From a virus: a DNA stretch of 38,933 nt. How positions within the stretch are numbered: the stretch's first letter is position 1; each line of letters opens with the position of its first letter. Under the pieces are notes generated by a model that saw only the letters and a program-made list of their open reading frames with translations, searched no databases and was not told the origin of the DNA. Positions 13,201 through 18,017 of this stretch are shown in pieces. A program made the position numbers and the translations under genes. Location: positions 1 to 38,933 of IMG/VR virus record IMGVR_UViG_3300017709_000007; one strand, 5' to 3'.

Positions 13201-13591
13201 TATTCAAGATTTGTATTTCTCGAATGGAAACGCAAACAATTTTTACTATGTGTTAGCGAGAAACATCTCTACAAATAAACTTGAGCTTTGGTCGAGTGGG
13301 TCTAATGCCCACGGACAACTTGGATACCAAGACAAGAGCAGCCTGACTAACTTCGCAAATGTTAATACAACCTGGTGGTCCGAAGCGTATCGCGTAAATT
13401 TCAGGTCAGACTTACTCGAAAAGGTAGTTACTATTCACTGCTGTCGACAATACAACACCGGAGGAAATACTTTTGTTCACCTATCTGATGGAAGAATATT
13501 TGCTGTTGGTTACTTGCAATGGGGATTTGGCACGACCTATGGTACAGTTGCCGACTATAAATATCAGTTCTCGCCAATAGAAATGGATTAA
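10262..13591 (+). CDS. tail fibre: collar domain fused to RCC1-like repeats
   Basis: The protein is 1109 residues. Near residue 20 it carries D-D-T-F-D-V-W-R-K-K-T-N, shared with the preceding fibre. Residues about 170-390 form a tail-collar domain: P-V-G-T-V-I-A-C, F-L-E-C-N-G, F-T-L-P-N-Y-E-G-R-V-L-V-G, M-P-K-H-D-H, H-R-H and G-H-N-H histidine pairs, then I-Q-P-Y-V-T-V-K-Y-Y-I-K-A. From about residue 640 to the end come repeats of the RCC1 type (V-F-H-T-W-G-R, F-W-G-C-G-V-N-G-G-Y-G, V-H-V-A-G-Y-C-D-N-G-Q, A-W-G-W-G-S-N-I-E-G-Q-F, L-W-S-S-G-S-N-A-H-G-Q-L-G-Y, I-F-A-V-G-Y), suggesting a beta-propeller at the tip. The likely role is host-surface binding. The propeller call is from repeat pattern only. 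Confidence 0.8.
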   Translation: MAIQESDIMDFGNGIIGDDTFDVWRKKTNSLKGEIDLVNTTLTDKINTDVAALRPLYIPIAGSATSVSTSLQLTSPLTLTNILNINGATLTGSITELASDKGFHSSIQLSSPRVRATSKLILGTKEYTVPSSPAINNAVLTSATTAGELQWRNAAELFASAGGLQQTAAVFEEVMPVGTVIACAEDPNDSNFLECNGGSVPKSGIYNKLYQVLKGTGATARYGETNTSFTLPNYEGRVLVGAGTAGGVNFGNTFGLDGGDGNISYNTNNHTLNRAQTGLPEYTDSHALTLGQMPKHDHVSNRNTYNSYNGLVRKSSSGYNSGNGFDNTVGEIDQKTSTKILEEGNNESHRHGISITNVTGHNHSISVSTSKRIQPYVTVKYYIKAVENSKVDFKIDVNNSGLTSTDGVGTPQSLISVSNQIHSLSVNPDNTSISVVNGQVAIKTNPTIPGVITTTGTDFILKNPTRLGSNSHLGRALVHGNGNGTGDPVLNGYDRKTVTTINDSGVGTNNDTLIINYSAVSPNSFGDYTNGVIINGTKAIMFEDGSILQSGAQKRGNFKKPTETESGKHHTVAPQYGDGFAYIDDEDNIIIGGNGNGYRARGASSDDGHTYRTKSMLPDDEVADKLYVQYFNTHVIAKSGKTYSVGYGYGASSTSSLYADHTTGVFHTWGRSFCESNNCKMSKIVATGDISNYASFALDTQGYFWGCGVNGGYGVLANGTITNSYDEPATFDSDNTIIGKRESLVNSETATAGVPYNLATNASGDSTRQYLAHPMNPMLDASGNITTDPTTAVSLLKVTDATHIGSYYPGIHLDTVAILSENGTVHVAGYCDNGQDGAGSHPATQAHWSTVQTSAGVPLENITKLYSGGEDYTTYFVAIDEDFNAWGWGSNIEGQFATGTTANVHYAKKIWDSSTRNRRANYVITNNAGGNAGTASVEAVLIIASHQDSAGVTINKEFYAGFTAAMYQLTHSVFNTSLYSIQDLYFSNGNANNFYYVLARNISTNKLELWSSGSNAHGQLGYQDKSSLTNFANVNTTWWSEAYRVNFRSDLLEKVVTIHCCRQYNTGGNTFVHLSDGRIFAVGYLQWGFGTTYGTVADYKYQFSPIEMD

Positions 13592-13602: not shown

Positions 13603-15132
13603 ATGGCATCACAAATACAACTAACAAGAAGTGGAACTCCAGGCGCTCAACCAACAGCCGCTGAAATGGAGCTTGGCGAATTGGCGTTAAATTACGCTGA
13701 TGGTAAACTTTATTTTAAGAATGATACTAATAATATTGAGTTGTTAAACTCAATGTCCAACATGAGTGGACAAAAAATTATCGTTAATGAGACTGATAAC
13801 CACATTGGTTTGAATACTACATCTCCTAATTTTCTACTTGATTTAGGAGGTGCGGTATCGAACCTTGATAATACTCTTCGTATTAATCAAACAACTGGCG
13901 GTACCGCGATTCGAATTGGTTCAGATGGTGTTCCAAGCGATGAAGATATTACGCTTTTAAGAGTTGATAACTTAGATGGCGAAACGAATTCGGCCGCAGA
14001 AGGTTTTTCTATCAAGTATCTTGGAACTAATTCTAATAACGAATTAGGAATTTTTACAGACAATGGTAGTTCCGAATTACAGACTTTAACGATTCTTCAG
14101 AATGGTAATATTGGCATTAGAAATAATACTCCTATTCATGAACTTGATGTCGCTGGAACAATACGAGTTACTAATAGCACTAACTTTATAACATTCAATG
14201 ACGGCGCGGAAGACATGGGCTTTATATTGAATAATGCAGGTAAGTTAGCAATTAATGCCGGTGGTACTACTGACGTTCTACAACTTCAAACGAATGGCGG
14301 CACACGAGTTCATATTGATAATAGCGGTAGGGTTGGTATAGGAACTACATCACCGGATCCTGGAGCGACCGTGCACGTGAGGAAGGGCGCGCCTAGATTG
14401 CTGTTAGATGGCTACGGAGCTGCTTCTGAAGATAGTGAAATTTCAAGAATTTCGGGTCTTTGGGATGGTACATATGTTGCTGATATTAGATTTTTAGCTG
14501 GTGATGATACTACAAATAAAGATAACGGAAAAATAGAATTTAGAACATACACATCAGATGGTAGTACTGATGCTCGAATGACTATTAATTCTACAGGTAA
14601 TGTTGGTATTGGAACTACATCACCGTCTGAAGCATTAGAAGTAGTTGGTAACGCGACCGCAGCAGAGCCTACTATAAGTACACATTTAACTACTAAGAAT
14701 TATGTAGATTCGCTAATATCTACGGTGCAACATACTGGCAGTGCCGTTACTCAAATCAGTGGATGCACTATATCAAGAACAGCCGCGGGGCTATATACAA
14801 TAACATTGGATGTTGATTCGGGACAATTACCAACAGCAGTTGCTGGTTTATCTATAGACTTTGCTACTGGCAGTTATAAGAACGATGCTGATCCACAATC
14901 ACTTGAAGGTGTTATTGTCACACAAGAAGCTACCTCCGGCGGTAACCATGGTAATATGAAAGGAGAATTTTCTATCTCTGCACAAACCATAAGTAATACT
15001 CGTGTTGATATAGAAATCGTTGAGCTAGCATCTTTCCGACAGTCCGCTGGAGGAGATGATAGTAATACATCGGCAGCATTTAAGAGGTTTAATGTCGATG
15101 CACCATTTCAGGTTTTAATAACCAACCGCTGA
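13603..15132 (+). CDS. tail fibre protein with VGIGTTSP repeats
   Basis: This 509-residue protein begins with a segment (L-T-R-S-G-T-P-G...E-M-E-L-G-E-L-A-L-N-Y-A-D-G-K-L-Y-F) typical of the N-terminus of phage fibres and tropism determinants. Its shaft has repeats ending in V-G-I-G-T-T-S-P (residues about 245 and 335), followed by a stretch like S-T-H-L-T-T-K-N-Y-V-D. The 2052-residue fibre has the same elements. The last 130 residues lose the repeats and look like a compact beta-rich tip. The role as a receptor-binding or side fibre is inferred from composition and cluster. The downstream accessory genes begin only 20 bases after its stop codon and are probably read from the same transcript. 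Confidence 0.75.
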   Translation: MASQIQLTRSGTPGAQPTAAEMELGELALNYADGKLYFKNDTNNIELLNSMSNMSGQKIIVNETDNHIGLNTTSPNFLLDLGGAVSNLDNTLRINQTTGGTAIRIGSDGVPSDEDITLLRVDNLDGETNSAAEGFSIKYLGTNSNNELGIFTDNGSSELQTLTILQNGNIGIRNNTPIHELDVAGTIRVTNSTNFITFNDGAEDMGFILNNAGKLAINAGGTTDVLQLQTNGGTRVHIDNSGRVGIGTTSPDPGATVHVRKGAPRLLLDGYGAASEDSEISRISGLWDGTYVADIRFLAGDDTTNKDNGKIEFRTYTSDGSTDARMTINSTGNVGIGTTSPSEALEVVGNATAAEPTISTHLTTKNYVDSLISTVQHTGSAVTQISGCTISRTAAGLYTITLDVDSGQLPTAVAGLSIDFATGSYKNDADPQSLEGVIVTQEATSGGNHGNMKGEFSISAQTISNTRVDIEIVELASFRQSAGGDDSNTSAAFKRFNVDAPFQVLITNR

Positions 15133-15152: not shown

Positions 15153-15611
15153 ATGGAGTTTTATCATTATATACATAAGTCGCCTGATACAGGTAATCTT
15201 ATGTTTACTACGTCTCCTAAAAAACTCATTATCTCTGAAACGCATATTGAATTAGGAAAAAAGGATATTGAAAAATACAGACTACATATAAAATATATTA
15301 ACTGCTGTTTTTTTGATGAGAATGGATCATTGTCCTACGATCACATAAAGGTACTGTCGCAAAAACTGTATAATTTGAGTATTGATGTTGATCAATACAT
15401 AAGGAAATTGCGAGAGCTTGTTGTCGAAGCTATAGGCTTGGAAAAACAAGAGTGCGCTAAAGAAATTGCTGAATCAATTAAATCTTTAAGTGACTTCGTA
15501 AATGATGATTTTTCAGGCATTAAAGATATTCAAGAAATTGATACTCTTACATGTCCAGAACTAAATATAGATTTTATTAGACATTATGCAAGCAAAATAT
15601 ACGGAATATGA
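15153..15611 (+). CDS. unknown protein, first gene of an accessory cassette
   Basis: This gene encodes 152 residues that I do not recognise. The composition differs from the neighbouring fibres: charged, Lys/Ile/Glu-rich and probably mostly helical after residue 60 (L-R-E-L-V-V-E-A-I-G-L-E...A-E-S-I-K-S-L). It has a C-C pair near residue 51, and no signal peptide or membrane span. ATG 15153 has no good Shine-Dalgarno. The gene overlaps the next by 26 bases, suggesting the two are made together. No late promoter box precedes it, so it is probably transcribed with the fibre gene upstream. Confidence 0.7.
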   Translation: MEFYHYIHKSPDTGNLMFTTSPKKLIISETHIELGKKDIEKYRLHIKYINCCFFDENGSLSYDHIKVLSQKLYNLSIDVDQYIRKLRELVVEAIGLEKQECAKEIAESIKSLSDFVNDDFSGIKDIQEIDTLTCPELNIDFIRHYASKIYGI

Positions 15612-16122
15612 TATACACGGCAAAGGTGTACCTAAACTGCATCACGCAGAAAAATTAGAAGCAGTTTTAAAACGTTTAACACCTAAAGGTGTATACGATA
15701 GATTAGAAAAAACAGTAAGGCGTGGAGATCCTAATCCAAATAGCCCGTGTGCAGTGAATGCATCTTTAGCAAAACTTTCTGACTCAGATATAATAGAGCT
15801 ATTACCTACGCTAAAAAAATGTTTTCCTACTTTAAGATTTAGAATAAGTGGTAAATTTATATATGGTCCTGGTGATAGCATTGATGAACATACTAATTCT
15901 AACGATCCGTCTAACACTCTTTACATAACATACGCTACAGGTGAGTCTAAATTCTCGTATCGGCATTCTTTAGACGAAGATTTAATCGATACTTATGATG
16001 TTACTAACGGCATTACACTAAGAGCATTTGAAATTACTGCGAGCGAGCCTTATACCTATCATAAAGTTGAGTGCAAATCAGGTTATAGAGTTTCAATCGG
16101 ACTAAGGTATGTTGATCTCTAA
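15586..16122 (+). CDS. putative Fe(II)/2-oxoglutarate oxygenase-like protein
   Basis: The 178-residue protein has a C-terminal half patterned like the double-stranded beta-helix oxygenases. G-P-G-D-S-I-D-E-H-T-N-S-N (H102, N104) is followed by a strand-rich stretch, then Y-H-K (H159), and nine residues later R-V-S (R168, S170). In known enzymes H-x-D/E plus a distal His bind iron and R-x-S binds 2-oxoglutarate. Here the acid position is Asn. An H-T-N-S-N motif is, as I recall, also present in related marine phage proteins. The N-terminal 80 residues are helical and basic. The target, if any, is unknown; adjacent fibres, host surface components or nucleic acid are possible. It overlaps both neighbours (26 and 14 bases). 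Confidence 0.5.
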   Translation: MQAKYTEYDIHGKGVPKLHHAEKLEAVLKRLTPKGVYDRLEKTVRRGDPNPNSPCAVNASLAKLSDSDIIELLPTLKKCFPTLRFRISGKFIYGPGDSIDEHTNSNDPSNTLYITYATGESKFSYRHSLDEDLIDTYDVTNGITLRAFEITASEPYTYHKVECKSGYRVSIGLRYVDL

Positions 16123-16465
16123 ACATCTTTTCAGCAATCACTCGCTAGGAAATGAATATATTGATATACACTTATTAGTCATGACTCTTAACGCAATAGG
16201 GGTTTTGAAATATGAAAATAATTATGATGTTATTAATACGCGCTGTAAAGACTTTCCTCTCAAACCCTCTGTTATATCTTTCTATGAAAATAACGGTGTT
16301 TGCAAAAATCCTATTGTTGTAACTGATGACGATTTTTGTTTAGATGGAAGACATAGAGTAGTATACAGAAAAGAAATAAACGATACCGTGTGCTCAGCGT
16401 ACATAGTGCCAAAAGAATACATACCATCTTTTATAAAAAGAAGAGCGGTTTCTCGGAATTATTGA
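16109..16465 (+). CDS. small ParB/sulfiredoxin-like protein
   Basis: This 118-residue protein has a core, N-P-I-V-V-T-D-D-D-F-C-L-D-G-R-H-R (residues 67-83) followed by A-Y-I-V-P, that resembles the ParB N-terminal/sulfiredoxin fold. There a G-x-H-R loop binds nucleotide and is preceded by a strand ending in P-I. Proteins of this fold include CTP-binding ParB, nucleases and sulfiredoxin, so the activity cannot be chosen from sequence alone. The length fits a single-domain version. The start at 16109 overlaps the oxygenase-like gene by 14 bases, pointing to coupled translation; a later in-frame ATG at 16181 is possible but would cut into the domain's lead-in. It is the last gene before the late promoter at 16487. 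Confidence 0.5.
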   Translation: MLISKHLFSNHSLGNEYIDIHLLVMTLNAIGVLKYENNYDVINTRCKDFPLKPSVISFYENNGVCKNPIVVTDDDFCLDGRHRVVYRKEINDTVCSAYIVPKEYIPSFIKRRAVSRNY

Positions 16466-16486: not shown

Positions 16487-16494
16487 TATAAATA
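16487..16494 (+). promoter_or_regulatory. late promoter box, 6 nt from ATG 16501
   Basis: An exact TATAAATA lies in the 35-base gap between the ParB-like gene and the LRR-like gene and ends 6 bases before ATG 16501. No Shine-Dalgarno is visible. Confidence 0.72.
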
Positions 16495-16500
16495 ACTAAT

Positions 16501-17394
16501 ATGCCAAGTATATCAGTCACAAATCCAGAGTTAATTACATCTATAGATCTAGGGTCTGCAACGCCTAAACTAGCAGGTGTTGTTGATGTAAGTAACTTTA
16601 GTACTCTTCAAATTATAAACGGCGATAATCAAGATTTAACCGGATTTCAAGGTGTTGAGAACATATCAACACTTACATCTGTAGATATATCTGATAATAA
16701 GATAGTTGGTGATTTACAGGATTTTTCTAACAATAGCAATTGTACTATTATAGATATCCGATCTAATAGATACAATGGTAATATGACTGCGGCATTGCCT
16801 ACAGGAATACAGAAATTTCTTGCAGCCAAGAATAATTTTGTAAGAGACAATAGTGGTACAATTCACAATTTTAGAAATCTTACGAACTTGGCGGTATATA
16901 TTACATCTAATCAAAGCGATAGTTTCGGTGTTAATTCAAATATCGACACTGGAGGAGATGCTACGCTCAACTGGAGCGGGCCTGGTCTATTGGCCAATAC
17001 TGCAGTTACAACGGCTGAAGGTATAGAAGGAGCAATACCAGAAAGTATTCGAATTTTAAATCTAAATAATACAAACATTTCGAAAGATTCGAAAAGAATA
17101 CTTTTAACACAACTTTACGATACGTTTGGTGCTCCCGTAGTTGCTGGCACTAAGGCCGCGAATTGGATTCAAACTACTGCGGTAAATGGAGTATTGTACA
17201 ATGGACAATCAGGAAACCCTACAGCCCAGATCAACGTAAACAATCAGCGCGGGATACATGACAACGCTAATCCGGCTGCAGACCACTGGCATAAATTGGT
17301 AGGAAAGCATTCCGCAGTTTCAATTTATGATGCGATGCAAGCATTAGTTAATGCTGGTTTTGATCTATACGGCTACGGAAGTACTACCCCATAA
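16501..17394 (+). CDS. leucine-rich-repeat-like virion-associated protein
   Basis: The 297 residues include irregular leucine-rich-like repeats between about residues 30 and 135. The units are L-Q-I-I-N-G-D-N-Q-D-L-T-G-F, L-T-S-V-D-I-S-D-N-K-I-V-G-D-L and T-I-I-D-I-R-S-N-R-Y-N-G-N-M; a further unit, I-R-I-L-N-L-N-N-T-N-I-S, lies near residue 182. The L-x-x-L/I-x-I-x-x-N spacing is what supports the call. The C-terminal third has no recognised domain. There is no signal peptide, which fits a virion part rather than a secreted protein. Set among fibre genes, a host-recognition or fibre-decorating role is likely, but it could also be a separate adhesin. Confidence 0.6.
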   Translation: MPSISVTNPELITSIDLGSATPKLAGVVDVSNFSTLQIINGDNQDLTGFQGVENISTLTSVDISDNKIVGDLQDFSNNSNCTIIDIRSNRYNGNMTAALPTGIQKFLAAKNNFVRDNSGTIHNFRNLTNLAVYITSNQSDSFGVNSNIDTGGDATLNWSGPGLLANTAVTTAEGIEGAIPESIRILNLNNTNISKDSKRILLTQLYDTFGAPVVAGTKAANWIQTTAVNGVLYNGQSGNPTAQINVNNQRGIHDNANPAADHWHKLVGKHSAVSIYDAMQALVNAGFDLYGYGSTTP

Positions 17395-17669: not shown

Positions 17670-18017
17670 ATGGCTACTTACTCAAATTTATACATAGATC
17701 AAGGGTCGGACTTTACTGCGACCATAGACTTATCGCAGACAACTGGTTCTTTAAATCTGACAGGATACACCGGTGCAGGCACAATTGCAAAATCTTACGA
17801 TGGAACGAGTAAAGGAAGTTTTACTGTAAGCGTAGATTCTGCTGATAACGAGCTTGACATATCTTTAACCGCAGCTCAGACAGCTGGTCTTAAACCAGGA
17901 AGATATGTGTATGATGTTATAATAAAGTCTGCAGCTGGTGTGATTACTCGTGTTTTAGAGGGCCAGCTGAATGTTACGCCAGGCGTGACATTTGATTCTT
18001 CAGCCCCTGAGACATAA
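17670..18017 (+). CDS. conserved-type small beta-sandwich structural protein
   Basis: The 115 residues resemble a small protein common beside fibre genes in marine T4-like phages. The pattern is L-Y-I-D-Q-G-S-D-F-T-A-T-I-D-L near the start, L-N-L-T-G-Y, G-R-Y-V-Y-D-V-I-I-K-S in the second half, and V-L-E-G-Q-L-N-V-T-P-G-V-T at the end. The alternating hydrophobic pattern fits an Ig-like or BppU-N-like sandwich. A role at the base of the large fibre encoded 4 bases downstream is likely by context. I recall the family but not a demonstrated function. Confidence 0.65.
   Translation: MATYSNLYIDQGSDFTATIDLSQTTGSLNLTGYTGAGTIAKSYDGTSKGSFTVSVDSADNELDISLTAAQTAGLKPGRYVYDVIIKSAAGVITRVLEGQLNVTPGVTFDSSAPET

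Follow-up and report, generated by a model that had tools for sequence, protein, structure and literature searches.

A three-gene cassette beside a fibre tip domain in uncultured marine T4-like phages, a candidate system for tip maturation

Mobile modules that combine a tail fibre with an accessory gene are already a known kind of phage element. In the V22/A5 module of Alteromonas phages, a tail fibre is accompanied by its cognate chaperone and has a role in host recognition (PMC10579305, PMC7289586). The locus described here shares with that module a fibre with accessory coding capacity downstream, common to distantly related phages of marine origin. It differs in having three genes rather than a single chaperone gene, which adds a predicted oxygenase-fold protein and a ParB-fold protein, and in being tied to a specific tip domain.

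The proteins of the locus can likewise be set beside described enzymes. With its predicted double-stranded beta-helix, in which five AlkB positions are in register, the product of the second gene resembles the 2OG/Fe(II) oxygenases AlkB, PHD2 and Tpa1, but it carries HxN instead of HxD, and its sequence matches no family significantly. An analogy may be drawn with AspH, an active protein hydroxylase that also does without the acidic iron ligand (PMC13168262), although AspH has two histidines only, with water in the acid site, whereas the phage protein has an asparagine there, and no sequence relation is claimed. Short (~100 aa) single-domain proteins of the ParB-CTPase fold exist in phages (PMC12704722), and the third protein resembles these, for example the DGHHR protein of phage ACP17, in its length of about 100 aa, its presumed Box I helix-loop and its Box II GxxR. 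Unlike them, it is found without ParA, HTH or dimer domain and sits in a fibre cassette. Finally, the T4-like marine cyanophage P-SSM2 encodes 2OG-Fe(II) oxygenases beside its baseplate genes (PSSM2_105 and _108), but these belong to PF13759/PF13640, do not lie by a fibre tip and show no profile relation to the protein considered here.

Genomic setting of the cassette

The stretch analysed, hereafter the window, is a virus contig of 38,933 bases that corresponds to the structural part of a T4-like myovirus genome. At 1-8 kb lie the baseplate wedge genes, followed by fibres and by genes for the head-tail adaptor, head closure and sheath stabiliser, after which come terminase, sheath, tube, portal, protease and scaffold. 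An initial, sequence-only reading of this DNA had singled out three overlapping genes at 15153-16465, lying between a fibre gene and a late promoter, and this arrangement is confirmed: three open reading frames occupy the same strand, overlapping by 26 and 14 nt, and begin 20 nt after the end of a tail-fibre gene whose C-terminal portion is the fibre tip domain FTD (Table 1).

Table 1. Positions in the window of the cassette genes, the neighbouring fibre gene and promoters, and candidate functional residues
Feature	Position	Strand	Description
T4-type late promoter TATAAATA	13556..13563	+	exact motif, upstream of fibre gene
Tail-fibre gene, carries FTD	13603..15132	+	509 aa; PHROG tail fibre matches
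Fibre tip domain FTD	14710..15129	+	C-terminal ~140 aa of the 509-aa fibre; profile search
Gene 1	15153..15611	+	152 aa, mostly helical, no known family
Gene 2	15586..16122	+	178 aa, predicted double-stranded beta-helix, 2OG-oxygenase-like
H102-T103-N104 (gene 2), HxN replacing HxD	15889..15897	+	invariant in 17/17 non-redundant sequences; aligns with AlkB HQD
H159 (gene 2), candidate distal metal histidine	16060..16062	+	invariant; in register with AlkB distal His
R168 (gene 2), candidate 2OG-carboxylate-binding arginine	16087..16089	+	invariant; His + 9, then R174; AlkB R204 register
Gene 3	16109..16465	+	118 aa, ParB/sulfiredoxin-superfamily single-domain protein
LDGRHR (gene 3), Box II / P motif GxxR	16340..16357	+	CLDGRHR invariant in all sequences
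T4-type late promoter TATAAATA	16487..16494	+	exact motif, 3' of cassette

Because one TATAAATA motif precedes the fibre gene and the next appears only after gene 3, with no further copy between them, the upstream promoter is likely to drive the fibre gene and the cassette together, probably as one late transcript. Most relatives in which the same strand continues also have TATAAATA within ~100 nt after the cassette. The contrast in composition with the fibres that the initial reading had remarked upon is real, the cassette having a GC content of 30-35% whereas that of the fibres is about 40%, but gp13 and the terminase, at 33-36%, are just as AT-rich. The gap thus separates globular from fibre proteins, and a foreign origin of the cassette on grounds of composition was rejected.

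Two further genes lie downstream of the cassette. The first (16501-17394) has its own late promoter and encodes a 297-aa leucine-rich-repeat-like protein, which matches PF23952 at 0.0043, below the cut-off, and has weak relatives in two contigs (G005 and G006), both cassette-bearing. The second (17670-18017) encodes a 115-aa protein of phrog_1084/3304 (L-shaped tail fibre assembly), and proteins of this type come after the cassette in several T4-like relatives.

Recurrence of the cassette and its link to one tip domain

A first search of IMG/VR with gene 2 yielded 10 contigs, each of which, as far as it extends, has gene 1 and gene 3 in the expected order, and profile scans raised the total to 22. 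Gene 1 lies directly upstream of gene 2 in 20 of these, and gene 3 lies downstream wherever the contig reaches. In most of the 20 contigs, genes 2 and 3 share 14 nt, and the overlap of gene 1 with gene 2 usually measures 26 or 38 nt. As several of the contigs are near-identical, they amount to ~13-14 independent lineages. Values of pN/pS fall between 0.13 and 0.5 for genes 1-3 in nearly all comparisons, showing that the genes are under purifying selection. Together with the order and overlaps, this makes the recurrence of the cassette more than chance, and the co-occurrence in relatives that the initial reading anticipated is borne out, the exceptions being two contigs of a single phage type. 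Gene 2 encodes the best conserved protein, with a mean identity of 61%, whereas gene 1 averages 43% and FTD 34%. A tandem duplicate of gene 2 is present within the cassette in two contigs (gene 1 - 2a - 2b - gene 3; L079:5971-7085 and L080:5971-7086), and both copies keep the EHTN motif. A tblastn search of 50,697 phage records gave only sub-threshold matches to genes 1-3 and no homologue, and a pattern scan of bacterial and archaeal genomes found neither gene 2 nor gene 3.

In the exceptional phage type (L081 and L082), gene 2 is 54% identical, retains EHTN and stands alone beside uvsX-/dnaB-like genes, the neighbours having been read by eye (L081:5211-5786, L082:473-1048). Gene 1, gene 3 and FTD were not found in these fragments. 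Gene 2 can therefore live alone, at least locally, and need not act on FTD. Another possible oxygenase-like open reading frame was noted by eye in the first of these contigs (L081:791-1462).

What the sequence-only reading lacked is the consistent partner of the cassette, which is one fibre tip domain; in this respect that reading, although partly supported, was incomplete. In each of the 19 contigs that can be assessed, the cassette adjoins a fibre gene with FTD at its C-terminal end. By profile search, a single convincing copy of FTD is present in 13/13 records, always directly next to the cassette, and the window has a marginal second match (E 0.01). More divergent loci (L079, L080, L084-L087) also show FTD beside the cassette. 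Conversely, an IMG/VR scan starting from FTD, which reaches only fairly close relatives, returns cassette-bearing contigs only, and FTD was not found in the phage records searched. The linkage is not just a matter of operon order, since in four contigs (L015, L017, L018 and L019) the FTD fibre gene is read from the opposite strand and converges with the cassette at the cassette's 3' end; in another (L020), fibre and cassette are placed upstream of gp6. FTD is fused to differing N-terminal parts, in a 219-aa short fibre, in the 509-aa fibre and in fibres of at least 1,800 aa. It contains invariant aspartates, one of them in a GG-x-D loop.

Comparison with backbone genes indicates how the module has spread. 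One contig (G003) shares only 33% identity with the window in terminase and 29% in tube, but 81% in gene 2, which argues that FTD and the cassette travel as a mobile module; in two others (G009 and G011), the identity to the window is 63% for terminase and 64% for gene 2. The spread of the module is thus mixed, with transfer between distant phages in some instances and inheritance along with the backbone in others. Among genes 1-3 and FTD, pairwise distances are correlated (Spearman 0.78-0.91), a correlation that partly reflects shared ancestry. In sum, conserved order and overlaps, near-strict neighbourhood to FTD in either orientation and spread across distantly related phages define a module in which accessory genes accompany the same fibre domain across unrelated phages.

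Predicted features of the three proteins

The AlphaFold2 model of gene 2 is a double-stranded beta-helix of moderate confidence (pLDDT 66.7, pTM 0.69). Its closest structural matches by VIA-align are AlkB (Z 9.8 over 130 residues), ALKBH7 (9.7), PHD2 (9.4) and Tpa1 (9.2), and the best 50 entries are all 2OG oxygenases; these scores lie above the 7-8 typical for orphan models, though not by far. Foldseek returns a mix of cupins and 2OG enzymes, and no family match was obtained in Pfam, PHROGs or NCBIfam. The initial description of this protein as oxygenase-like therefore holds for the best matches of the model but not for the iron motif, which is HTN rather than HxD. Among 17 non-redundant sequences, with identities as low as about 45%, the carboxylate position is without exception asparagine, and the pocket motifs EHTN, HK and GYR-S-G-RY are invariant in the same set. 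Accordingly, where an iron triad of the form HxD/E...H would be expected, HTN...H is found, whereas a basic residue for the 2OG carboxylate appears to be supplied by the candidate R168. Gene 2 is for this reason classed only as a protein that would work like a 2OG/Fe(II) oxygenase, not as a canonical member of that superfamily.

In a profile alignment with seven AlkB proteins, H102, N104, H159, R168 and R174 fall on AlkB H131, D133, H187, R204 and R210, which we take to be the HxD, H, R, R pocket positions of that enzyme. PHD2 has an H...H...R arrangement with the same spacing of nine residues from the histidine to the arginine. The hhalign score against AlkB is not significant, being reached by 18 of 100 shuffles, and homology of gene 2 to AlkB or to the cyanophage oxygenases was set aside as not significant by profile. 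In enzymes that obey the 2-His-1-carboxylate rule, the carboxylate of HxD is the usual iron ligand; HxN removes it, and gene 2 may thus not be an oxygenase. The protein hydroxylase AspH, however, works with two histidines only (PMC13168262), so that by analogy HxN would be no proof of a dead enzyme. D107 was considered as a replacement carboxylate and rejected, because it is not invariant (N in a duplicated copy); E101, D97 and D138 are possible replacements. A literature search for HxN oxygenases and for hydroxylation of phage fibres returned nothing relevant.

For gene 3, the ParB-like assignment of the initial reading is upheld by profile comparison. Against eight phage ParB-like DGHHR proteins, hhalign gives a probability of 94% and a score of 48.6, compared with a shuffle maximum of 20.1 and with scores of 9-14 for unrelated profiles. 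By sequence alone, the best phage match is the ACP17 DGHHR protein, at an E value of 0.1. The DGHHR family itself matches PF08857 (ParBc_2) at 0.0025 and, weakly, SerK. Of the features expected of the ParB/sulfiredoxin superfamily, the GxxR box and the profile relation are thus both present, and a helix-loop as in ParB-CTPase folds is presumed from the sequence to precede the box; the AF2 model has a pLDDT of only 41.7. A phage fusion of ParB with DUF1983, a domain frequent at the C termini of RBPs, binds ATP (PMC12704722). Among the DGHHR relatives, the gene of Acidovorax phage ACP17 (L045:1405-1992) overlaps a fibre-like gene of lectin/cell-wall-anchor type, and that of Stenotrophomonas phage Bhz51 (L050) adjoins a baseplate hub gene.

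Homologues of gene 1 that are 25-54% identical occupy the same place in relatives, and the sequence pattern points to helices after a short N-terminal part. Its most conserved stretches are IKYI(D/N)CC, LRxLxxEA, DFSxI and the C-terminal end, KxY. Weak matches in Pfam, PHROG and PDB were set aside as coiled-coil or helical noise, and identity with the V22-type chaperone was rejected (hhalign probability 0.6%).

A proposed role in tip maturation, and alternatives

The best explanation for these observations is that the genes constitute a maturation cassette for FTD and form the accessory portion of a mobile module for host recognition. The translational coupling of genes 1-3 suggests that the three proteins work together. 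Given the near-strict linkage to a single tip domain, their action on that domain seems, by association, rather probable. A conserved pocket of metal/2OG type next to a putative NTP-binding protein suggests, in turn, that the action is chemical. Gene 2 would use its HxN...H...R site to modify a residue of FTD oxidatively or, if it is not catalytic, would bind such a residue through the same pocket, the candidates including its invariant aspartates, for example the one in the GG-x-D loop. Gene 3, as a putative NTP-binding protein of ParB/sulfiredoxin type, could provide a nucleotide-dependent step, either phospho-transfer or a switch, and the helical gene 1 product may serve as an adaptor or chaperone that presents the fibre. 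This whole chain is a hypothesis to which we assign a probability of roughly 0.45.

The main rival, tenable if not favoured, is that the three proteins fold, trimerise or cap FTD without chemistry, in the manner of Tfa/gp38-type or Alteromonas V22/A5 chaperones, and that this is why they travel together with the fibre. It is the main rival because modules of a fibre and its cognate chaperone are established in distantly related marine phages (PMC10579305, PMC7289586). The position directly behind the fibre gene would suit such a role, as would the helical character of gene 1, which is unlike that of enzymes, and HxN could mark a dead enzyme. A chaperone set would not, however, need an invariant metal and arginine pocket, yet the polar pocket residues of gene 2 are invariant and its product is better conserved than both gene 1 and the tip itself; moreover, gene 3 keeps its NTP-binding GxxR box, and gene 1 is unrelated by profile to the V22 chaperone.

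It is improbable, by comparison, that the cassette encodes host-directed or small-molecule enzymes, for modification of nucleotides or metabolites or for anti-defence, that hitch-hike by the fibre in moron-like fashion. The lone gene 2 near uvsX/dnaB-like genes is consistent with such a role, nucleic acids are frequent targets of AlkB-like folds, and numerous ParB-fold proteins of phages have links to methyltransferases or defence (PMC12704722). Near-strict linkage to a single tip domain, in either orientation and on different phage backbones, argues against it, as does the position of the cassette among late genes. That the proteins are virion parts, such as adhesin subunits at the fibre tip, is very improbable: although they are late genes inside the fibre block and the beta-helix fold is also known from virion proteins, their charged globular composition without fibre repeats, the pocket-type conservation of gene 2 and the NTP motif of gene 3 speak against it.

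In its most far-reaching form, the maturation hypothesis describes a dedicated system of three proteins for post-translational modification of the receptor-binding tip, in which an enzyme of oxygenase fold with a natural HxN iron site, coupled to an NTP-dependent enzyme of ParB fold, would install a metal site or an altered residue on the tip and spread with it as a host-range cassette; so specific a version is doubtful. As far as the databases and literature searched show, the combination of three genes, an HxN oxygenase-fold protein, a ParB-fold protein and one tip domain is undescribed, and we know of no described example of receptor-binding tips that are enzymatically matured by cognate cassettes. 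Should the chemistry hold, these phages would provide one, and the limits of the 2-His-1-carboxylate rule could be probed with an HxN oxygenase found in nature. For uncultured marine T4-like phages, the tip and its three genes would, even as a chaperone set, amount to a portable host-recognition unit whose precise partner domain, FTD, is available for experiments.
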